Below, piece after piece: positions 3,487-18,843 of a stretch of 20,494 nt of DNA. The notes beneath the pieces are model-generated. The model saw only the letters and a list, made by a program, of their open reading frames with translations. It was not told the origin of the DNA and made no database searches. A program made the position numbers and the translations under genes. The stretch comes from a virus. The stretch's first letter is position 1, and each line of letters opens with the position of its first letter. The stretch lies in IMG/VR virus record IMGVR_UViG_3300017757_000218, positions 1 through 20,494 of that record. The stretch is one strand, 5' to 3'.

Positions 3487-4509
3487 TTAACTTAATTTTT
3501 CAAATACATCTTTAATCCAGTATTCTACATTTCGAATTATGTTTCCTAATCTGTCAGTATTATACATGCCTAAAAACTGGTCTGGAAGGTATGTAGGTTT
3601 TTCTGATTCTACAACCTGCTTTAAATAGTTTTTATCATTTTCATCTAACATTGGATTTGATAAATCCATAATTTTGTAATTTTTCTCTAAACTGTCAATT
3701 GTTTGTATAATACGGGCATATATTACATTCTCCTTAAATTTAGCTTCACATATATCATAGATATCATCTAATGATAAATCCCTTTCACTTAACTCAGGAA
3801 ATAATTTCTTTAATTTTTTAGGACCTAATCCTTTAACTCCTGCAACTTTATCTGAATTATCACCCATTAGGGTTTTGTAAATAATAAAGTTATTAGGAGA
3901 CATATTAAATTTTTCTACAACTGTAGCTTCAGTATAATACTCTTTTTCCATAGGACGATATACAATTACATTTTCATTTACTAATTGTAAAAAATCCTTA
4001 TCAGAAGAAACAATAAATACTTTATCTTTTGGTGATTGGGGAATTATAGTTCCCAAATATGCAATAATATCATCAGCTTCTACTTTATCTAATGATACGG
4101 TTTTAACTGGTAGTGTTTTTAGGTATTGAATTATTCTAACTATTTGATCTATTTTAGCATCATCTTCATCTTCTAAATCATCAAATGCATCCCAATTAGT
4201 AATACGTTGTAAATTTCTACCTGATTTATATTCAGGGAGTAAGTTTTTTCTATTGTTTGAAGATCCAGCACCATCAAATACCACATATACTTGAGTAGGA
4301 TTAATTTGACGTATTAATGCTCCTAATGAACGGAAAAATCCACCTAAACCTCCAATATGAACTCCATCAGGATTAACCATATTTAACATTGCAAAATTTC
4401 GAAAGAATAGGTTTAAACCATCTATCATTAATACTCTTTCACCCTCAACTGTTTCAGGTTTTTTCTCATCCATATTGTTGAGAAGATTTAGTAAATCTTT
4501 TTTATCCAT
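3487..4509 (-). CDS. FEN-type 5'-nuclease (T4 RNase H-like), RNA-primer removal
   Basis: Structure-specific 5'-3' exonuclease of the PolI-5'exo/FEN/T4 RNase H family, expected to remove RNA primers and flaps from lagging-strand fragments. The 340-aa protein shows the acidic metal-site motifs in order: Asp30 in LMIDGLNLFFR, Asp79 in VVFDG, EADD at 144-147, SSDKD at 168-172, and GDNSD at 216-220 followed by the helix-hairpin-helix GVKGLGPKKLKKL (about 224-236). As the family A polymerase in this window has no 5'-nuclease domain, this separate protein plausibly provides that activity. It has its own promoter (TTCG-N20-TATATTTA, 4533-4564) and starts after a terminator that closes the uvsX transcript. 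The ATG at 4509 is preceded by AATAAGTT, a leader ending shared with the 157-aa gene. Confidence 0.94.
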   Translation of the reverse strand: MDKKDLLNLLNNMDEKKPETVEGERVLMIDGLNLFFRNFAMLNMVNPDGVHIGGLGGFFRSLGALIRQINPTQVYVVFDGAGSSNNRKNLLPEYKSGRNLQRITNWDAFDDLEDEDDAKIDQIVRIIQYLKTLPVKTVSLDKVEADDIIAYLGTIIPQSPKDKVFIVSSDKDFLQLVNENVIVYRPMEKEYYTEATVVEKFNMSPNNFIIYKTLMGDNSDKVAGVKGLGPKKLKKLFPELSERDLSLDDIYDICEAKFKENVIYARIIQTIDSLEKNYKIMDLSNPMLDENDKNYLKQVVESEKPTYLPDQFLGMYNTDRLGNIIRNVEYWIKDVFEKLS

Positions 4510-4532
4510 AACTTATTTTAAATTTTATAATG

Positions 4533-4564
4533 TAAATATACGAACTATTTTTCGAATAAACGAA
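4533..4564 (-). promoter_or_regulatory. Promoter of the 5'-nuclease gene, Bacteroidetes type
   Basis: On the coding strand: TTCG (4564-4561), a 20-base spacer, then TATATTTA (4540-4533), 24 bases before the ATG. It resembles the Bacteroidetes -33 TTTG and -7 TAnnTTTG elements, with one mismatch in each. The same spacing occurs at three other replication-gene starts in this window. The bases just before the -7 box are TTCG. Confidence 0.65.
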
Positions 4565-4579
4565 TAATAATAGGTTTTC

Positions 4580-4642
4580 TTAAAAAAAAAGAAACCCAAG
4601 CGCTTTCGAGGGTAGAGGGGAACTACTAACGCTTGAGTTTCT
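4580..4642 (-). terminator. Rho-independent terminator after uvsX
   Basis: Arms 4630-4642 and 4590-4602 form a 13-bp stem on the minus-strand RNA (one G-U pair), directly followed by nine U (4590-4582, the first U shared with the end of the stem). It lies 58 bases after the uvsX stop and before the promoter of the 5'-nuclease gene. The 27-base loop is unusually long, and bases 4612-4618 in it are complementary to 4671-4677 upstream in the RNA. Confidence 0.85.
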
Positions 4643-4700
4643 AATAAAATTATTGTAAATCCTTCTACTGCCTCTACTCAGTATAAGATTAATGTATTAA
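4643..4700 (-). other. 3' untranslated segment of uvsX with possible loop-pairing site
   Basis: This segment joins the uvsX stop codon to the terminator stem. No ORF was recognised. It contains 4671-4677, complementary over seven bases to the terminator loop (4612-4618), so the transcript end could fold into a kissing or pseudoknot-like structure. Together with the terminator and promoter it makes up the 191-base gap between uvsX and the 5'-nuclease gene, the longest gene-free stretch of the window. Confidence 0.4.
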
Positions 4701-5783
4701 TTATTGAGGTTCATCTGAGAATGTTGAAATATCAGTGTATGCTTGTTCCTCTTCAGCAATTATAAAATCACCACCACCTAGAATTTTTTTCCAAGCTTCT
4801 TTGTGTTCATCTTTATAATTTTTAAGTGCTTTATCATTATCAAGAATAAACCCGTGAGGTGTCATTACAATTTTACCTCTAGTAGTAACTCCATTGATGT
4901 GATTTTTATCAATTTGTAGGTTAGTACGTTTAGCAAATTCTACCTGCTTACCATCTTTAATTGCTTTAATTTTAGATGTTCCAGCTGACATAACATTACC
5001 AAATGTAACTACAAATGTTGAGTCAAACCACATTGCATATCCACCTTTGTTCATTAGTTTGGGTTGACCCATAGGTGATTCTGCTTTAAGAGTCCATACT
5101 TTATTAATTGCAACAAGTGTATTTGTAAAAGGACTACTTTCCTTTCTAGACATTACAATTCGTTGGTTAACATTGTTTCCAAATTGTGTTGACATAGCAC
5201 CTGCATTCCATTCGTTATTGTTTTTATTTGACTTTAACGACATTTCACAAGGTACTGACCCAATTGAATCCCAACAGAATAATAAATCAAAAGGTAAATT
5301 ACCTTTTTTCTGCTCGTCAATCAAATCAAGAATAAAACCAGCAACGTCTTCGATTGAGTTAATAGTTTCTCTATCTACATAGATAAAATTACCACTGTAA
5401 TCAATTACTTCACCTGTTTCTTCATCAACAACTTCATCAACTTCAAGTCCCATCATTTTAGCATGTTCCCATGACCACTTCATCTCAGTGATAATAAAAA
5501 CTGGCATAATACCTCGTTTTTGAGCTGATACAGCTGCTTCAATTAAAGCAGTTGTTTTTCCTGTATCTGAATGTCCACGAAGTAATACAATGTGACCCTG
5601 AGGTATCCCAGGTACTGATGTAATTTCTTGGTATGCACTTGATAGTGGAATCCAAGTTTGTTCTTTAAATTTAGCTTTGGATGATAATCCTTTCTTAGTT
5701 TTAAAACTGTCTAAATTAAAGTTCGCTTTAATCTCGGAGGAGACAGCCTCCGAGAGTGATTTTCTGTTTTTTCCTCTTGGCAT
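4701..5783 (-). CDS. uvsX: UvsX recombinase (RecA/Rad51-type strand exchange protein)
   Basis: ATP-dependent recombinase that forms filaments on single-stranded DNA and drives strand invasion for recombination-dependent replication and repair. The 360-aa protein has Walker A GHSDTGKT at 70-77, ITEMKWSWEHA (98-108) carrying the catalytic-glutamate region, the Walker B-like stretch LLFCWDSIGS (167-176), and a central NEWNAGAMSTQFG loop region expected for DNA binding. The C-terminus is acidic. Its start lies 10 bases after the gp32-like SSB stop, so the two, which cooperate on single-stranded DNA, are almost certainly co-transcribed from the promoter at 6674-6705. A strong terminator follows. 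A GC-rich perfect hairpin lies in the coding region 30-51 bases after the start codon. The ATG at 5783 has no Shine-Dalgarno sequence. Confidence 0.95.
   Translation of the reverse strand: MPRGKNRKSLSEAVSSEIKANFNLDSFKTKKGLSSKAKFKEQTWIPLSSAYQEITSVPGIPQGHIVLLRGHSDTGKTTALIEAAVSAQKRGIMPVFIITEMKWSWEHAKMMGLEVDEVVDEETGEVIDYSGNFIYVDRETINSIEDVAGFILDLIDEQKKGNLPFDLLFCWDSIGSVPCEMSLKSNKNNNEWNAGAMSTQFGNNVNQRIVMSRKESSPFTNTLVAINKVWTLKAESPMGQPKLMNKGGYAMWFDSTFVVTFGNVMSAGTSKIKAIKDGKQVEFAKRTNLQIDKNHINGVTTRGKIVMTPHGFILDNDKALKNYKDEHKEAWKKILGGGDFIIAEEEQAYTDISTFSDEPQ
5733..5754 (-). promoter_or_regulatory. GC-rich hairpin inside the 5' end of uvsX
   Basis: CTCGGAGG (5733-5740) and CCTCCGAG (5747-5754) form a perfect 8-bp stem with a 6-base loop, at codons of residues 10-17 of UvsX. 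It stands out from the AT-rich surroundings. Its place just after the start codon suggests an effect on translation or mRNA stability; that role is inference. Confidence 0.45.
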
Positions 5784-9261: not shown

Positions 9262-12240
9262 TTACCATTCTTTTAAAACCCCTCTAATATCATAGTGAAC
9301 AAAGCTATTGTATTTACCTAAACCGCCTTTAGGAATCTTATTTTCATTCATTAATCTTAAAATAAGGTTGTAAAGTGTTTCTACTTTATCTGATCTAATT
9401 CCAATATCTGCAGCTCCCCCAGTTTTATGAACGGAGTTTTTGGCTGAATTTGGTACTGTGCAGTTATATACAGGTGAACGATATCCACTATTTATAGTAG
9501 TTGGAGATACATTACCAAAACCACTAAATGGTTTATCCATTTCAATTCCAATTACATTTATAGCTTCATATAATGATCTTGCTACTTTCCATCCTTCTTT
9601 AGGTAGTTCATTTCCGTCTCCATCTGTCATAAGTTTATTAAACTTCGAACTTTCAAGTGATTCTCCCCTAAATGTTAAGTTATATTTAGGACCATATTCT
9701 AAAATATCTTTCACAGAACCATCTAGATCTACAAAAGTTTCTTTAAAAATATTATTTTTAAAATGGATATTATAGGCTGTTGAGTAAGGTTCGTTTCCAA
9801 ATTCTATCTCACAACTTTCTTTTGAGTTGGATGGATTAAAACCTTCACCACCACCACCAAATTCATAAGGTTGGATTTGTTCATTTTTATATACTTTAGC
9901 CGTTGGAGTAGATAAAGTATCTAGCTTAGTTGTCCAAGCTGTATTATTTATTGAATGGTTAACTCCTTTAATTTGGATTTCAACTCCACCCTTTTCATAC
10001 GAAGGTGGTAAAACCTCTTCACTAATTTCAAATTTCTGATATAATACCATCCCTGATAGTCCTTCCATTTCTAATGAAAAATTAAATGGTAGGAAAAATG
10101 GTGATTCTAATTGTTGATTTTCAGATGGTTGGGATAACTTACCTAAAACTAAACCAGCATGAGTTGTGTTTAAAGATTTTAAAGATGTTATATTTTCACT
10201 TAAGAAATTTCTATCTTCATAAACCGAATCAAATATTGATTCTTTTATTCCTTCCTTAGTACCTTCTCCACCTTCTATAAATCTTATTCTAGACATTTTA
10301 GTCCAATTAGATTCAATATTTTTATCATTTTTAACACTGCCACTCGTTGGAGATGGAGGGGTATATGAAGATTTTTCTTCAATTAATCTATCTTCTAACC
10401 CTAAATTATAATTAGAAAATGCAGTGGCATTTGCAGAAAATTGATTACCATTTGATTGGGCTCCAATTGAGATCATAGAGGCAAAATCACTTGAAATTTC
10501 GGCCGTTAGATTTATATTTTTTATAAAGCTACCTTTACCAGATTCAACCCCAAATGTTTTAAAATGAGCATGTTTACCTTTAGGTGCTACACCATAATTA
10601 GCTGGTATATCTTCTACAAATTGAATTTTACCATCTATAGTAGTACGTACTGATATTTGGTTAAAACCACCTAATGATTGTGTAATACCTTTTATTATTT
10701 CTTTAAGGAATGATAAAATGGAAATTGTGTTATTATCATCTTGTGGTAAATTTGATATTACTTGGTCTATATAATTCACATTAACAAAAACACCTGATAG
10801 TCTTCCTAAATATAAAGATTCTGAAACTTTCCACTTAGAAACTTTAGATAAAGCTTTATTAAGTAGTGAGTTAGGCATTTTTAAATCTGGTGAAGGTGAA
10901 TTTGTGTTAGTATATGGTATTAAACAAACAGTAGGATCAGATGAAAAACTTCCAGGGAATGTTAATATATAATTTTCATCTTTAGATAGATCATTAAAAT
11001 CCATATCAATCGAAGATATTGGAATTGATTTATCACCTACATTATTATATAATAAAAATCGTGATTGAATATAAGCCATTAAAGTTCCAAAAGTCATGTA
11101 TATTTGTTTGGCTTGATGTACATCACTATCAGATGTTGTTTTAGGAACTGTTAATATTGCGTTTTTAATTTTAAGATCTTCTCGTATAAATTCTTTATCA
11201 GAACTAATGGTTTTGGATAATGTAGTTGATGTTGGGAAATCAGTTATTGTATGAGAAAATGATTGAAAGTCCTCTTGACTTTTTTCATTAATTGTATCTT
11301 GAAAAATTTTATATATAACTTGATTTAATAAAGTTTTATCTTTATTAGCTATTATAGGAGATACTGTGGTTTCTGAAGGTTCATCATTTTTACCATTTAC
11401 TGATGTTGTTGATATTTTTTGGAGGTCTTGATTTACATTGATTTTAAGTGATTCTATAACATCACCCATACCTGTTAATATTACCTGACAATCATAACTC
11501 CCATCAGGGTTGAATTGCCAATTAAAATTAGATATTTTACCATATACGGCGTCATAATTTCCACTACGATCTATTCTGGTTTGTTCAATTTCTCTATAAA
11601 TATCAAATTGATTTTTACTTCCTGGGTTTAAAAGTGTTCTTAGGGGTTGAGTAGAGAAATTATCAAATGATTTCAATTTACCACTATTATCTAAATAAAC
11701 GCTATGTCCAAACTCTAGTAAAAGAGTATACCCCGGACGAAGGTATAAAACATCTATAAGTTGGAATTGCTGTTTGCTAAAACATCTAATATTAATTGTG
11801 GTTTTAGTTAAAGCGCCATTATTTAAATACTGAACATCAGCATTAGTAATACCAGGCATAGGGACAAATCCTCTTTCTTTTATCCCACCCCAACCATACG
11901 CACCATTAAATAATCCGTTATTTTGTTTATTTAAACCAGAGTTGAGTTTTTCATCTGATGTTACTCCACCTTGTAATATTAAGTTTTTAGCTAAATTATC
12001 ACCTACAATTTGATTTCTTGATATACTATTATTAGATGATAAAATTTTATTTAAAACACTATTACTACTAGCTTCAGTTTCTGATATATTTACACCACTA
12101 GCTAATCTAATCCAAGGTGTCTTTGTTGTATAATATTTTAGGTCTGATGTGGAGATATTTGAGTATTTACCCAATGATGATTGTCTTATATCAACTTGTT
12201 CCCTTACATAGTCTTTAAATGGTTGTCCTAAAAGCGGCAT
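9262..12240 (-). CDS. Baseplate hub protein with C-terminal M15 peptidase (tail lysin)
   Basis: A 992-aa structural protein ending in a probable peptidoglycan-cleaving domain. The C-terminal 75 residues have the M15/VanY-like layout: SGYRSP (918-923), the zinc site SVHKTGGAADI with His938 and Asp945, and the third ligand His982 in FVHYDIRG. Preceding residues about 805-917 lack cell-wall repeats. The N-terminal part carries WIRLASGVN (43-51), a GFVPMPGITNADVQY stretch and QFQLIDVLYLRPGYTLLLEFGH, reminiscent of T4 gp27-like hub proteins of other phages, though I cannot prove homology. A Gly-rich linker (GGGGEGFN) separates the two parts. It begins 1 base after the LysM-like gene and is followed by the 207-aa gene. 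The domain would open the cell wall under the tail tip at infection, a job done by gp5 lysozyme in T4. Confidence 0.85.
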   Translation of the reverse strand: MPLLGQPFKDYVREQVDIRQSSLGKYSNISTSDLKYYTTKTPWIRLASGVNISETEASSNSVLNKILSSNNSISRNQIVGDNLAKNLILQGGVTSDEKLNSGLNKQNNGLFNGAYGWGGIKERGFVPMPGITNADVQYLNNGALTKTTINIRCFSKQQFQLIDVLYLRPGYTLLLEFGHSVYLDNSGKLKSFDNFSTQPLRTLLNPGSKNQFDIYREIEQTRIDRSGNYDAVYGKISNFNWQFNPDGSYDCQVILTGMGDVIESLKINVNQDLQKISTTSVNGKNDEPSETTVSPIIANKDKTLLNQVIYKIFQDTINEKSQEDFQSFSHTITDFPTSTTLSKTISSDKEFIREDLKIKNAILTVPKTTSDSDVHQAKQIYMTFGTLMAYIQSRFLLYNNVGDKSIPISSIDMDFNDLSKDENYILTFPGSFSSDPTVCLIPYTNTNSPSPDLKMPNSLLNKALSKVSKWKVSESLYLGRLSGVFVNVNYIDQVISNLPQDDNNTISILSFLKEIIKGITQSLGGFNQISVRTTIDGKIQFVEDIPANYGVAPKGKHAHFKTFGVESGKGSFIKNINLTAEISSDFASMISIGAQSNGNQFSANATAFSNYNLGLEDRLIEEKSSYTPPSPTSGSVKNDKNIESNWTKMSRIRFIEGGEGTKEGIKESIFDSVYEDRNFLSENITSLKSLNTTHAGLVLGKLSQPSENQQLESPFFLPFNFSLEMEGLSGMVLYQKFEISEEVLPPSYEKGGVEIQIKGVNHSINNTAWTTKLDTLSTPTAKVYKNEQIQPYEFGGGGEGFNPSNSKESCEIEFGNEPYSTAYNIHFKNNIFKETFVDLDGSVKDILEYGPKYNLTFRGESLESSKFNKLMTDGDGNELPKEGWKVARSLYEAINVIGIEMDKPFSGFGNVSPTTINSGYRSPVYNCTVPNSAKNSVHKTGGAADIGIRSDKVETLYNLILRLMNENKIPKGGLGKYNSFVHYDIRGVLKEW

Positions 12241-14529: not shown

Positions 14530-14539
14530 TATAAATATT
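14530..14539 (-). promoter_or_regulatory. Candidate late promoter upstream of the 74-aa gene
   Basis: Coding-strand AATATTTATA, overlapping the stop codon of the tape measure gene and 26 bases before the next ATG. One of four exact copies, all between tail genes. No TTTG occurs 20 bases upstream. Confidence 0.45.
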
Positions 14540-16829
14540 AACCCATTCTAGAAGTTGACAATGCTAATGATCTACCTGCTTTAGCTCCATCAATATAAAC
14601 ATCACCACCTTGTTTAACAGCTCCTATTAGTTCTTTTAGTAATGAAACTACTTCACCATTATTACCACCACCTGAAGCTCCGTGAGATGGGCTCATTGAA
14701 ACTCCATCATTTCTTGATCCTTGGAATATACCACCTTCTCTTGGAGACATTACAATAGGACCTCCATTTGGATCTATACTTAAATCACCTGTAGGTGTTA
14801 TTTCATTATTTCTCTTAAAATCATAAGCCAAACCTGCACCCATACCTGCAAGTGCTCCTAATGGACCCCCTGCCATTCCTCCTAACAAACCACCCGCTAT
14901 CATTCCCATGTAAGGGATAAGACTTTCTACTATGGATGCTAAACCTTCAAGCATAGGCATCATTTTTTCTGCTATATTTACAAACATATCAGTAAATTTA
15001 GCCATTACATCGTTTAACCTTTCCTGCATATTTGCAGATTTCAATTGATTCCCCAGCCCTTCATCCATCAATTCAAGCCTACGAGCTTCATCTAAATTAC
15101 CTTCTCTAACTGCTTTGTTATAGTCTTCTTGGACTTCAGACATGGATTTAAAACCTTTACTTCTTAAAAAGTCGAGTTTTTGCTGTTCTACCATAGCTTT
15201 TGATAATTCTTCTCTACTCATACCCAAAGCTTGTGCGAACTGATTCATTATAATTGGGTTTTGTTTTTGCTCATCTGTTAAACCAGCCATTTCACGTCTT
15301 AATTCTTGAGCTAATGTCGCATGATCTCCAGTTAATGCTGCGGCTCTTGCTCTTTCTAAATTTAATTCTTTACCAGTTAACAATTCAGCTTGCATTTCAG
15401 CTTCTATTGAAGATGAAAAATCTAGTAAATTCGAACTAATACCTTCTAATTGTGATTGACTAACACCTAATAATTTTGCTTGGAATACTTGATTAGTTAA
15501 TTCCTTAGTATTCATTTTATTAGCTATCAACTGAGATGCTGATAATTGGCTAAGTCCTTCTTGAATATCTCTTTGATTTAATGATATTCCTTCTTGATTA
15601 TTTAATTCTAATGTAACACCTTGGATAGTTTCTAACTGATCCATCATGTTTCCATCATTAGCCATAGATAGTACTGTTAATCTACCCATTGTTTCGGCTG
15701 ATAATCCCAATCTTTTTTGGATTAATGCAAAATCAGATGATAGTTTATCTGAAAATACAGTTGATGTTCCAAATTCAGCATTTAGAGAAGCTTGAGCTTC
15801 ACCTATATTTTTAGTATTTAAAGCAGTATTACCTGATGTTGTTGCTATTCTATTATTATTACCTACTAATTTTTGAGCTTCCGCATTTGATATAGCATAA
15901 TTTTTAGCCATTTCACCCGAGGCACTGTCAATTAATTGGAATGCTTTTGCAAATTGACCTGCTATAACTGATAATGCTGCAGCTGGTCCTAAGGATTTGG
16001 ATAAATTTTTACCCATTTGCCCTGTATAATGTCCAACTGATTTGAATTTATCTAATATGGTTCCTCCATTTTCTCTAACACCCTCCAAACCCGCGGCGTA
16101 TTCACGGGTACTTTTAGAAGCTTCTTCTAAACCTAATTTATCAGATATTGAACCCATACCCAATTTATTCAAAAATACATCTAACCCCTTTCCTATATCT
16201 TGTAAACCAATAGCACTATCACCAAATAAACTAGCAGCACTACCTATATTTTTAGAGTGTTGTTCAATTTGTTCAAGTTCGTCTCCTTGTTGATCTAATG
16301 CTACATTTTGTTGATTATATAAGTCTAAAAGAGTTTGTTCTTCAGCAGTTAAATCTTGAGCGTATTTAAACATAATATCTTGAAGTCCTGATGTGGACTT
16401 CATAGCTGTGTTAATATCGTCTTGTGCTTCAGCTCCAAATCTTGTGGTAGTAAGTATTTTACTTAAAGCTTGTTGTTGCTCTACTGCAAGTGATTGTTTA
16501 TTTTTTTCTAGTTTAAATAAATCTTTACTTATATCTGATATTTTCTTACTACCTTTAGCTATTTCACCATATTCTCGTGTTATGTCTCGGGAACTACTTG
16601 AAAGGTCTTTAAATGATTTAGCTGCTGCTGATGCTTGAATTGTATTTTCAAATACAGATTTGGTGGCACTTCTGGCTTCTGATGCATAATCCCTAGTTAA
16701 GAATAAAACATCCTGTAAGGATTGTTTTAAATCTTCAACACTTTTAACTTGTTCACCTTGAATTTGTTTGGTTTTTTCAAGTTCTCTATTATATTGTGCT
16801 TGTTTTTGAGGATCTAGTTGACCAGCCAT
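14538..16829 (-). CDS. Tail tape measure protein
   Basis: Sets tail length and is expected to leave through the tube at infection. The 763-aa protein is almost entirely predicted helical: a coiled-coil-like N-terminus rich in Lys/Glu/Gln (about 1-200), long alternating helical stretches, then a strongly hydrophobic Gly/Met/Ala/Leu region (about 623-668, with GGLLGGMAGGPLGALAGMGAG) that may insert in membranes, and a C-terminal VYIDGAKAGRSLA segment seen in many tape measures. At about 1.5 angstrom per residue the tail would be near 115 nm. It follows the chaperone genes, as usual in tailed phages. The ATG at 16829 has an AACAAAACAAAG leader and no Shine-Dalgarno sequence. No peptidase or transglycosylase motif was seen. 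Confidence 0.9.
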   Translation of the reverse strand: MAGQLDPQKQAQYNRELEKTKQIQGEQVKSVEDLKQSLQDVLFLTRDYASEARSATKSVFENTIQASAAAKSFKDLSSSSRDITREYGEIAKGSKKISDISKDLFKLEKNKQSLAVEQQQALSKILTTTRFGAEAQDDINTAMKSTSGLQDIMFKYAQDLTAEEQTLLDLYNQQNVALDQQGDELEQIEQHSKNIGSAASLFGDSAIGLQDIGKGLDVFLNKLGMGSISDKLGLEEASKSTREYAAGLEGVRENGGTILDKFKSVGHYTGQMGKNLSKSLGPAAALSVIAGQFAKAFQLIDSASGEMAKNYAISNAEAQKLVGNNNRIATTSGNTALNTKNIGEAQASLNAEFGTSTVFSDKLSSDFALIQKRLGLSAETMGRLTVLSMANDGNMMDQLETIQGVTLELNNQEGISLNQRDIQEGLSQLSASQLIANKMNTKELTNQVFQAKLLGVSQSQLEGISSNLLDFSSSIEAEMQAELLTGKELNLERARAAALTGDHATLAQELRREMAGLTDEQKQNPIIMNQFAQALGMSREELSKAMVEQQKLDFLRSKGFKSMSEVQEDYNKAVREGNLDEARRLELMDEGLGNQLKSANMQERLNDVMAKFTDMFVNIAEKMMPMLEGLASIVESLIPYMGMIAGGLLGGMAGGPLGALAGMGAGLAYDFKRNNEITPTGDLSIDPNGGPIVMSPREGGIFQGSRNDGVSMSPSHGASGGGNNGEVVSLLKELIGAVKQGGDVYIDGAKAGRSLALSTSRMG

Positions 16830-16855: not shown

Positions 16856-16881
16856 AAGGACGTCATTTCTTTGACGTCCTT
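16856..16881 (-). terminator. Hairpin over the chaperone stop codon, possible terminator
   Basis: AAGGACGTCA (16856-16865) and TGACGTCCTT (16872-16881) form a perfect 10-bp stem with a 6-base loop. The stop codon of the T-like frame lies within it. On the minus-strand RNA it is followed by UUAAUAUUUAU, which is U-rich but not a clean U run, so it may terminate weakly or protect or punctuate the transcript. Confidence 0.5.
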
Positions 16882-17198
16882 GTAACATAATTAGGTGGGG
16901 TAACCTGTTTATTTGGAATTTTTTTCTTATCTGGATTAGCTAAGTCAATTTGTGTATTATTTGATTGTGAAGAAGTAACACCTTTATGGGCATCAGATTC
17001 TTGTTGTTTATTCTCAACAATTGATTTATAAGTAAATTTTCTTAACCATATTGGCATTTCGTATATAGTATGCCAATCATATCCACCCCCTCCATAGTAA
17101 ACTATTTCGTGGATTTGTTTAAATAGTGATTTTCGGTATTCAGACGTCAGGCCAAAAAAAGTTAGTTGTGATCGGGATTGAAGCCTCCCCGTCTTCAC
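16863..17198 (-). CDS. T-like extension of the tail assembly chaperone, probably made by frameshift
   Basis: The open frame is 111 codons from an in-frame GTG at 17198 and overlaps the previous gene by 59 bases. The part after the T7 run (96 residues, from GLTSEYRKSLF) looks like the T component of tail assembly chaperones: a short helix, YYGGGGYDWHTIYEMPIWLRKF, then a Lys/Asn/Gln-rich tail (SQSNNTQIDLANPDKKK). The 15 residues before it lie wholly inside the overlap. The GTG has a weak AAAGGG upstream, so independent initiation cannot be excluded, but no ATG exists before residue 48. Placement directly before the tape measure gene is the conserved position of the G/GT pair of long-tailed phages. 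Confidence 0.75.
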   Translation of the reverse strand: MKTGRLQSRSQLTFFGLTSEYRKSLFKQIHEIVYYGGGGYDWHTIYEMPIWLRKFTYKSIVENKQQESDAHKGVTSSQSNNTQIDLANPDKKKIPNKQVTPPNYVTRTSKK

Positions 17199-17880
17199 CG
17201 TTATCCCTTTCGTATTTAAATGTTAAATCTACATCTGGTTGTGTTAATTTTATATGATCTCTTAATGCTTTTGAATCACGAGCTAACATATAATTATCAA
17301 CAAATTCTCTAACTGCTCTATTTTCTTCATTACCATCAACTGATACAATCATATGTTTCAAACGAGTTGATATTTCAGGAGATGCTTTTTTGTTAAGTTT
17401 TTGTAAACCTTTAATCTCTTGACGGATTTCTCTATCATCATTTCCAGTTAATAACTTATATTCAATTGTAGCTCCTGTTGTAGGTAATGTATATTCAAAT
17501 TTGTTTACCCCTTTGGTTGGAATTGATTCCTCACTTAAATATTTAGATTCAATTTGAGATAAATCTACAGTTTCTTCTTTTCCTAAAAAATTAAAAACAT
17601 AATCTTTACCATATCCTAAGACACGAGCTGCTACCATAATAGCATTTCTATCTCCTACAACAAGATCGTCATATTTAACTTTACTTACAATTAGGGATTT
17701 TAATAACTTTTCAATTACAGTTCCGTCCTGGATGTAATTTTGGTTAGTTAAAATATCTTCTTCTTTTGCTGTCATATATTTCATTTCAACTTCACCCGAA
17801 GAAAGTGGGTTTGATTCAGGGTATACTAAACCTTTAGAAGGTAGTTCTACCATTTCTGTTGGGAACTTAAATTCGCTCAT
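17140..17880 (-). CDS. Tail assembly chaperone, T4 gp26-like (G-like product)
   Basis: A 246-aa protein matching from memory the T4 gp26-type baseplate/tail chaperone family: an N-terminal LPSKGLVYPESNPLSSGEVEMKYM, then TAKEEDILTN, then LLKSLIV with DDLVVGDRNAIMVAARVLGYGKDYVFNF (about 67-98). The middle is mixed helical with GNDDREIRQEIKGLQKL. It has no membrane or signal segment. The last codons are AAC TTT TTT TGG CCT GAC GTC TGA, and the second frame continues past them, so the protein is probably made both alone (246 aa) and as a fusion (338 aa by a +1 shift, 339 by a -2 shift). Its neighbours are the membrane/coiled-coil gene and the tape measure gene. The ATG at 17880 is 34 bases after a late-motif copy. 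Confidence 0.82.
   Translation of the reverse strand: MSEFKFPTEMVELPSKGLVYPESNPLSSGEVEMKYMTAKEEDILTNQNYIQDGTVIEKLLKSLIVSKVKYDDLVVGDRNAIMVAARVLGYGKDYVFNFLGKEETVDLSQIESKYLSEESIPTKGVNKFEYTLPTTGATIEYKLLTGNDDREIRQEIKGLQKLNKKASPEISTRLKHMIVSVDGNEENRAVREFVDNYMLARDSKALRDHIKLTQPDVDLTFKYERDNGEDGEASIPITTNFFWPDV
17151..17163 (-). promoter_or_regulatory. Candidate programmed frameshift site
   Basis: Coding strand AAC TTT TTT TGG C, with seven T at 17160-17154, lies four codons before the stop of the gp26-like frame. A Phe tRNA can re-pair fully after moving +1 (to GGC) or -2. Both lead into the T-like frame; a -1 shift does not. A GC-rich stretch (about 17164-17200) with GGGGAGG lies just upstream in the RNA. 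Confidence 0.6.
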
Positions 17881-17942: not shown

Positions 17943-18254
17943 TTAATAAACGTTTGTTTGTGTTTTTTTAATGTCAAAATCCTTGTATATCTGGGTTGAT
18001 AGTTCTATCATTTTTGTATCAACATGCTTGTACAAAGCTTCTAACTCTCCATTAGTATTTTTAACTGTTTGTGTTGTATATCCTACACAACTTTGTTCTG
18101 TCATATGGATTTTTTGATCTAGTGAATTGATTAAATCAAGATTTTCATTAATCTGTTTCTGTTGGGATTTAATTGTTCTATAATTTGAATAAATTAAAAT
18201 TGTGTTTAACATAATATACCCACTTACTACTAAAATAAAAATTGTTGTCTCCAT
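17943..18254 (-). CDS. Small protein with N-terminal membrane helix and coiled coil, unknown
   Basis: I do not recognise this 103-aa protein. Residues about 4-22 (TIFILVVSGYIMLNTILIY) form one hydrophobic transmembrane-like segment, followed by YRTIKSQQKQINENLDLINSLDQKIHM, a polar helical stretch with spaced Leu/Ile, and a second helical stretch to the end. The topology could be an inner-membrane anchor with the coil in the cytoplasm or periplasm. It sits inside the tail module, right after a terminator and before the chaperone gene. Possible roles are a spanin-like or holin-associated protein, an exclusion factor, or a tail-assembly membrane factor; none can be chosen from sequence. No lipobox is visible, and the single cysteine lies at residue 56. 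The ATG at 18254 has an ACACCAAAACCAAATCAAT leader. Confidence 0.75.
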   Translation of the reverse strand: METTIFILVVSGYIMLNTILIYSNYRTIKSQQKQINENLDLINSLDQKIHMTEQSCVGYTTQTVKNTNGELEALYKHVDTKMIELSTQIYKDFDIKKTQTNVY

Positions 18255-18354: not shown

Positions 18355-18843
18355 CTAGTAGTTCAATACGCAGTAATCCATACCTATTGTTACATCTAAA
18401 TTAATAGCAGTTCCATCATCATCCCAATTGTAATCTCCAAATGAAGCATCTTTGATAAAAGCACCTTTGATAATCCATTCTGATACTACATCACCTACAG
18501 GACCTAATACATTAATGGTTAAATCTTTTTTGTAAAAATCTGAATAACCATCTCTACCTGTAACTGATTCATGGTGTAATCTTACCCATTCCATCACTGA
18601 TTGAGCACCTGAGGGTGTAATCGGATCAAATAATGTCATTGATAAGTCATTCCATCTCAATTTACCCTTAACTTTACGGTAAGTATTGATGTGATTTAAT
18701 GTTATCTCGTCTTGTGAGAATCCCATTCCACTAATTCCTTTTATAAGGTATGAAGGGATGCCATCCACATACATGACGAACCTATTTGCTTGTTTTGGTT
18801 CAAATGCTGTGAAAAATATTTCGTTTGGATCTAATACTGCCAT
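18355..18843 (-). CDS. Tail tube protein (T4 gp19-like)
   Basis: Forms the stacked hexamer rings of the inner tube. The 162-aa size equals that of T4 gp19 (163). Visible family features are FEPKQANRFVMYVDGIPSYLIKGISG (about 14-39), which fits the tube-protein entry, VKGKLRWNDLSMTLFDPI (58-75), and a C-terminal beta region with DGTAINLDVTIGMDYCVLNY. No signal peptide or cysteine-rich region. It follows the sheath gene by 56 bases and is closed by a strong terminator. A late-motif copy is 33 bases upstream of its ATG, so it may also have its own promoter. The leader is A/T-rich without Shine-Dalgarno. Confidence 0.93.
   Translation of the reverse strand: MAVLDPNEIFFTAFEPKQANRFVMYVDGIPSYLIKGISGMGFSQDEITLNHINTYRKVKGKLRWNDLSMTLFDPITPSGAQSVMEWVRLHHESVTGRDGYSDFYKKDLTINVLGPVGDVVSEWIIKGAFIKDASFGDYNWDDDGTAINLDVTIGMDYCVLNY

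Follow-up and report, generated by a model that had tools for sequence, protein, structure and literature searches.

Probable +1 programmed frameshifting in the gp26-like tail assembly chaperone gene of a virus and its T4-related relatives

The gp26-like tail assembly chaperone gene described here very probably gives rise to two proteins, TAC-N (246 residues) and TAC-NC (338 residues), through conserved +1 programmed frameshifting. Sequence and comparison together establish the presence of two frames, selection on the second (the T frame), the +1 relation between them and the location of the shift. From these we infer use of the shift by ribosomes, its efficiency and a role in tail assembly. 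An initial annotation had proposed a programmed frameshift in this gene and the proposal is strongly supported. Of 173 unique relatives at least 160 show the +1 relation, as does every one of 86 held-out sequences; the T frame has a dN/dS of 0.14, and the slip site could be mapped.

The chaperone gene and its second frame

The source is a virus record of 20,494 bases, a metagenome-derived fragment, analysed over its full length and referred to here as the window. The chaperone locus is on the minus strand, where TAC-N (17140-17880) lies between the tube and tape measure genes. Profile matches place TAC-N in the T4 gp26/PF12322 family. The window protein matches phrog_150, "baseplate hub", with an E-value of 1.5e-9, as do 38 of 39 of its relatives, and PF12322 with an E-value of 2.9e-4, the 21 bits of the latter falling under the Pfam cut-off of 24.5. 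The upstream neighbour but one is a gp19-like tail tube protein (18355-18843, minus strand; phrog_4542, E = 4.6e-22; PF06841, E = 6e-5). Between the tube gene and the chaperone there is a 103-residue ORF with a hydrophobic N-terminus (17943-18254) and no convincing family match. Directly after the T domain comes a 763-residue ORF (14538-16829, minus strand), for which no family match was found in Pfam or PHROGs. We call it the tape measure protein gene, the presumed partner of the chaperone, because of its position and the annotation of the syntenic gene in Flavobacterium phage immuto. Elsewhere, positions 9262-12240 encode a 992-residue protein that resembles baseplate hubs and carries, at residues 912-987 near its C-terminus, an endolysin/peptidase-like domain (phrog_894). 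No tRNA genes or Rfam families were found in the 20,494-nt window.

The chaperone ORF (17880 to 17140, minus strand) ends with AAC TTT TTT TGG CCT GAC GTC TGA, the zero-frame stop occupying 17140-17142. The initial annotation placed this stop four codons after the TGG; a small correction is needed as three sense codons (CCT GAC GTC) precede it. A second frame, +1 (equivalently -2) relative to that of gp26, is open from 17198 to a stop at 16863-16865 and holds YYGGGGYDWHTIYEMPIWLRKF. It passes the gp26 stop and ends just before the tape measure ORF, which begins at 16829, as had been claimed. The T domain itself (16863-17159, minus strand; FFGLTSEYRK...MPIWLRKF...) forms the C-terminal part of TAC-NC. 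The window therefore displays two overlapping frames between tube and tape measure genes, as in G/GT-type chaperones. The commonest form of that device, a -1 slip at X XXY YYZ, does not apply. The -1 frame opens 4 nt before the gp26 stop and extends only 12 codons beyond it, so the earlier dismissal of a -1 route was right.

The overlap contains a U7 run (17154-17160, minus strand), in frame as UUU UUU U(GG), on which a P-site Phe-tRNA could re-pair one base 3', from UUU to UUU. It is part of a 15-mer, TTTTTTTGGCCTGAC (17146-17160, minus strand), conserved among clusters formed at 75% identity and read in two frames, as F-F-W-P-D and F-F-G-L-T. In-frame UUU UUU U occurs once in the 5925 codons of the window genes, at this site, and the motif is common in relatives, which together put the site beyond chance.

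We propose that most ribosomes would stay in the zero frame and terminate at 17140 to yield TAC-N. At the two Phe codons (UUU UUU U) a minority would move forward by one base, the P-site Phe-tRNA letting go of its UUU and pairing again with the UUU that overlaps it in the +1 frame. These ribosomes would enter the T domain and produce TAC-NC as a fused chain with the junction ...TTNFF-GLTSEYR.... In variant sites the +1 slip would take place on UUU.C, or with Leu-tRNA on CUU.U. The tryptic peptides computed for the window are DNGEDGEASIPITTNFFGLTSEYR (2632.19 Da) for the +1 junction and DNGEDGEASIPITTNFFWPDV (2323.03 Da) for the zero-frame end; a -2 shift or slippage would instead give ...NFFFGLTSEYR (2779.26 Da). 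By analogy with lambda G/GT (PMC5009743), and given the gene order, the short form may coat the tape measure protein while the T domain of the long form may recruit tube subunits.

TAC-N and the T domain were modelled apart, not as a fused chain. The AlphaFold model of TAC-N has a pLDDT of 92 and the T domain is predicted, with moderate confidence, to be a helical hairpin. Sequence and fold searches of the PDB gave no significant match; the HK97 chaperone (PDB code 2ob9) ranked 33rd against TAC-N with non-significant values (E = 2.3, target TM 0.47, probability 0.21).

Conservation of the +1 relation among relatives

Five further queries and phage records brought a first set of 80 viral contigs up to 173 unique sequences. 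A sequence was scored +1 when that frame, and no other, stayed open for 45 codons or more beyond the gp26 stop, as it does in 160. Four of the other 13 have the T frame in -1, two have a separate T gene, two have both frames open and five are cut by the contig end. The last two categories were counted into the +1 class, which then numbers 167; at least 160 of the 173 thus encode the T domain in +1. Extra loci fetched once the rule was formed left 86 unique new sequences, the held-out set, in every one of which a T-domain HMM matched the +1 frame, with no match in -1. The +1 class then totals 253 unique sequences. The homologue alignment suggested by the initial annotation as a check has in this way borne out the frame relation.

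The slippery sequence of the overlap is conserved together with the frame relation, TTT TTT TGG CCT being present in 137 of the 173 unique relatives. Alignment of 39 diverse relatives gives the T domain the pattern FFGLT..YR..LF..IHEIVYHGxGGYDWxTVYNMPIWLRxFT, and the frame evolves as a protein, with a median dN/dS of 0.14 over 238 pairs and values under 0.5 in 99% of them. The +1 arrangement is also seen in the sequenced isolates immuto, Mel-JY01, SP-15 and RM378. The metagenomic origin of the window could invite the view that the overlap is a sequencing error, or has decayed and gives no functional T product. That the arrangement recurs in the isolates and in 253 unique relatives, together with the low dN/dS of the T frame, refutes this and leaves it a negligible likelihood. 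Phage immuto contains a relative, as do several MAGs that bear the label Flavobacteriales; the latter may be virus contigs binned with bacteria. The immuto record misses the frameshift, listing the T domain (3839-3949) as a very small hypothetical ORF that begins at an internal ATG.

Does the T domain have a start of its own? A separate gene, translationally coupled to gp26, does exist in two relatives, L251 (2992-4040) and L256 (2977-4010), where an ATG comes just after the gp26 stop and the T gene carries a new N-terminal stretch; the window T frame also has an in-frame GTG, at 17198. The T frame, under selection as protein, is nonetheless without its own start in many members. No ATG, GTG or TTG precedes the conserved core in 61 of 160 sequences (20 of 63 clusters at 75% identity) or in 26 of the 86 held-out, and the first in-frame ATG is usually within the MPIWLR motif. 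Moreover, both separate-gene members, which are sisters of the +1 phage immuto (tree support 100/98), have lost the slip motif, the sequences there being TTC TTG TAT CCT in L251 and TTC CTT TGG CCA in L256. We consider a separate gene to be highly improbable for the window. Loss of the T7 run and an ATG at the head of the T gene had been named in the initial annotation as observations that would speak against a frameshift; that both changes occur in the same two members supports it.

Position and direction of the shift

The T frame has a stop just 2 nt ahead of the first Phe codon in 22 of 160 sequences, and the gp26 stop is 15-30 nt past that codon. These limits place the frame change at the T run or a few codons after; the sequences compared leave it about 20 nt around the run in which to take place. 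A slip at CCT GAC was rejected since a move from CCU to CUN would leave Pro-tRNA unpaired, and GAC is frequently missing. Among the 75% clusters CCT is fixed in 49 of 49 (background 0.37) and GAC in 35 of 35 (background 0.20). The probabilities computed for these codons and for the base before the run treat clusters as independent, which overstates significance. The invariance of both codons is attributed to double coding (WPD over GLT) and was not counted as an RNA signal.

The initial annotation left the direction as +1 or -2. It can be narrowed to +1, since several lineages have variant sites at which re-pairing would fail after a -2 shift. Scored by simple pairing rules for Phe and Leu tRNAs, every one of the 253 +1-class members (167 of 167 and 86 of 86) has a YUU.Y site that permits +1 re-pairing. 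A -2 programmed shift on the U7 run, of the kind known in phage Mu (PMC5009743), would insert one extra Phe (FFF-GLT). The window would allow the necessary re-pairing, and so would 236 of the 253, including 153 of the 167 in the first set. It is impossible in the remaining 17, 14 of them first-set members on three separate branches and three from the held-out set, yet their frame relation is unchanged. The sites concerned are TTC TTT TGG (the L241 group), TTC TTT CGT (GXN1), TTT CTA (LR756508, L365, L367) and TTC TTC TTT CCC (L359), and we regard the -2 alternative as unlikely. Tandem -1 re-pairing is possible in none of the first set and impossible in 249 of the 253. Four held-out members with longer T runs (TTT TTT TTC; L273, L310, L320 and L323) would permit it too, and three of the four carry AAT before the run.

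The site is otherwise variable. TTT CTT TGG, CTT TTT TGG, TTC TTT TGG and TTT TTT TAC all occur with the +1 relation, as do TTT CTA TTC (LR756508), TTT TTT CAC (SP-15), TTT TTT AGT (LIS04) and TTC TTT CGT (GXN1), and the held-out set adds TTC TTT TTT CCC, TTT TTT TTC CCT, TTT TTT TGG CCC and TTT CTA TGG CCT. Neither the U7 run nor the adjacent Trp codon, both stressed in the initial annotation, is therefore essential, as TTT CTT TGG, TTC TTT TGG, TTT TTT TAC, TTT TTT CAC and TTC TTT CGT retain the frame relation. A starved Trp codon as the driver was likewise rejected, with TAC, TTC, CAC, AGT and CGT replacing TGG in the same relation.

A homopolymer such as T7 might also be subject to transcriptional slippage, RNA polymerase dropping one base or adding two so that some mRNAs carry a fused frame. 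T10 runs at the slip site (AAT TTT TTT TTC) are present in L310, L320 and L323 with the +1 relation retained, and transcript slippage is plausible in that subgroup. The longest T run, however, is just three or four in 22 of the 167 first-set members and the run is interrupted in at least 14 of the 86 held-out members, with the frame relation the same, which argues against slippage. The main group moreover avoids T8, which none of its 52 clusters has although 27 are expected to; slippage would favour the reverse. For the window we judge this explanation very unlikely and retain +1 ribosomal frameshifting.

One published ranking counts against the +1 reading: in E. coli UUU.U lies well below CUU.U for +1 shifting (PMC5009743). 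Another supports it, placing UUU and CCC next after CUU among the codons most prone to +1 shifts (PRFect, PMC10885494). Searches for stimulators were negative, which also weighs against the +1 reading. A downstream pseudoknot or hairpin is not conserved (mean z 0.0 to -0.6 over 57 clusters), and one hairpin that spans the window's site (-20 kcal/mol) was discarded as a stimulator because relatives give no matching signal (mean z -0.32). Upstream, no conserved positions of a Shine-Dalgarno-like element were found in the 57 clusters beyond those that are codon-constrained, and a prfB-like GGG before TTT CTT TGG belongs to one subgroup only and is not general. With no conserved structure or Shine-Dalgarno element the efficiency is not predictable.

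The base before the long T run is never T in 52 clusters, where codon usage predicts 27 T-ending codons, whereas T precedes the run in 12 of 12 -1 members. The simplest reading is selection in the +1 class against -1 slippage. As an absolute rule the absence of T was rejected, L310, L320 and L323 being exceptions. Two kinds of -1 lineage provide natural controls. Three contigs (L010, 731-1468, together with L022 and L094) have AAT TTT TTC TGG CCC, with a classical U UUU UUC and the T frame in -1. L010 is closely related (68% identity) and branches from within the +1 clade (support 100/98), which implies a recent change of frameshift direction. In the jumbo phages 121Q, GAP32, RaK2, XacN1, SCTP-2, Phosso, Atu_ph07 and MIJ3 the T frame is -1 without exception and the site is U UUU UUY; the T domain so encoded is homologous to that of the +1 group (hhalign probability 96%).

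The direction of the shift thus seems to depend on a few bases. We give an even chance to a broader proposal, drawn from these comparisons, that the Phe-Phe dipeptide in this gene, which is conserved among phages, works as a two-way switch for frameshifting. U before UUU with UUY after would lead to -1, C, G or A before with UUU.Y to +1, and lineages would have flipped direction, or gone over to a separate ATG gene, via a few base changes and an indel. Under this scheme the base ahead of the run would be maintained as a guard against -1 leakage.

Known systems and implications

The frameshift in the lambda G/GT tail assembly chaperone and many relatives was reportedly described by Xu, Hendrix and Duda in 2004. 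The window gene resembles lambda in its place between the genes for tube and tape measure, in short and long chaperones with a common N part, and in a T domain present only as a fusion. It differs in that lambda shifts -1 and the window gene probably +1 on UUU.U, and in its gp26-like N domain, which has no sequence match to solved chaperones. Most tail chaperone frameshifts go -1, while Mu uses -2 and HSTV-2 probably +1; as all three directions are known in the wider G/GT group, direction is not a requirement (PMC5009743). HSTV-2 is a haloarchaeal myovirus for which the +1 chaperone frameshift is reported as very likely (PMC5009743); the likeness is one of direction, and the host is archaeal.

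The jumbo phages (RaK2, 121Q, GAP32, Atu_ph07, Wroclawvirus) have homologous N and T domains and the same Phe-Phe pair at the slip. They differ in using -1, in a T-ending preceding codon and in a second Phe codon that is mostly TTC. Their -1 slip is our deduction from sequence; published data were not found. T4 gp26 and gp51 belong to the same families by annotation (PF12322, phrog_150), but no T frame lies behind gene 26, which is followed by gene 25, and T4 is cited as an exception that lacks G-T frameshifting (PMC5009743). For T4-like phages, Vladimirov et al. 2022 reportedly describe one gene for the short form and another for the fused form (as cited in PMC10885494). The C-terminus of T4 gp51 (4480-5229 of the locus) matches the T profile weakly, at about 10 bits, in line with gp51 being a fused long form.

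Two systems outside tail assembly invite comparison at the slip itself. In prfB, the gene for release factor 2, a +1 shift at CUU U needs an A-site stop codon and an upstream Shine-Dalgarno stimulator. The phage sites resemble it in the proposed +1 slip of a P-site tRNA to UUU, and TTT CTT TGG members share the CUU U tetranucleotide, but both the stimulator and the A-site stop are absent, the A-site codon being TGG, TAC, TTC, CAC, CGT or similar. In influenza A PA-X, Phe-tRNA slips +1 on UUU C (UUU CGU). Phage GXN1 has exactly TTT CGT, though the gene is unrelated and the PA-X ribosome is eukaryotic.

The G/GT device itself is well known. No prior report of +1 in the T4-related group was found in the literature searched, in which Vladimirov et al. 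2022 was covered through its citation in PMC10885494. Hundreds of T4-related phages, relatives of immuto, Mel-JY01, SP-15 and RM378 included, appear to use +1, in a large and mostly uncultured group whose known relatives shift -1. The finding also accounts for misannotation, such as the listing of the immuto T domain as a tiny hypothetical gene. With +1, -1 and separate-gene solutions in one family, these phages offer a natural set of sites for learning what sets frameshift direction. If the two-way switch is correct, the clade, which is mostly from aquatic metagenomes, would constitute the largest described natural set of +1 shifts at UUU.U in bacteria or phages.
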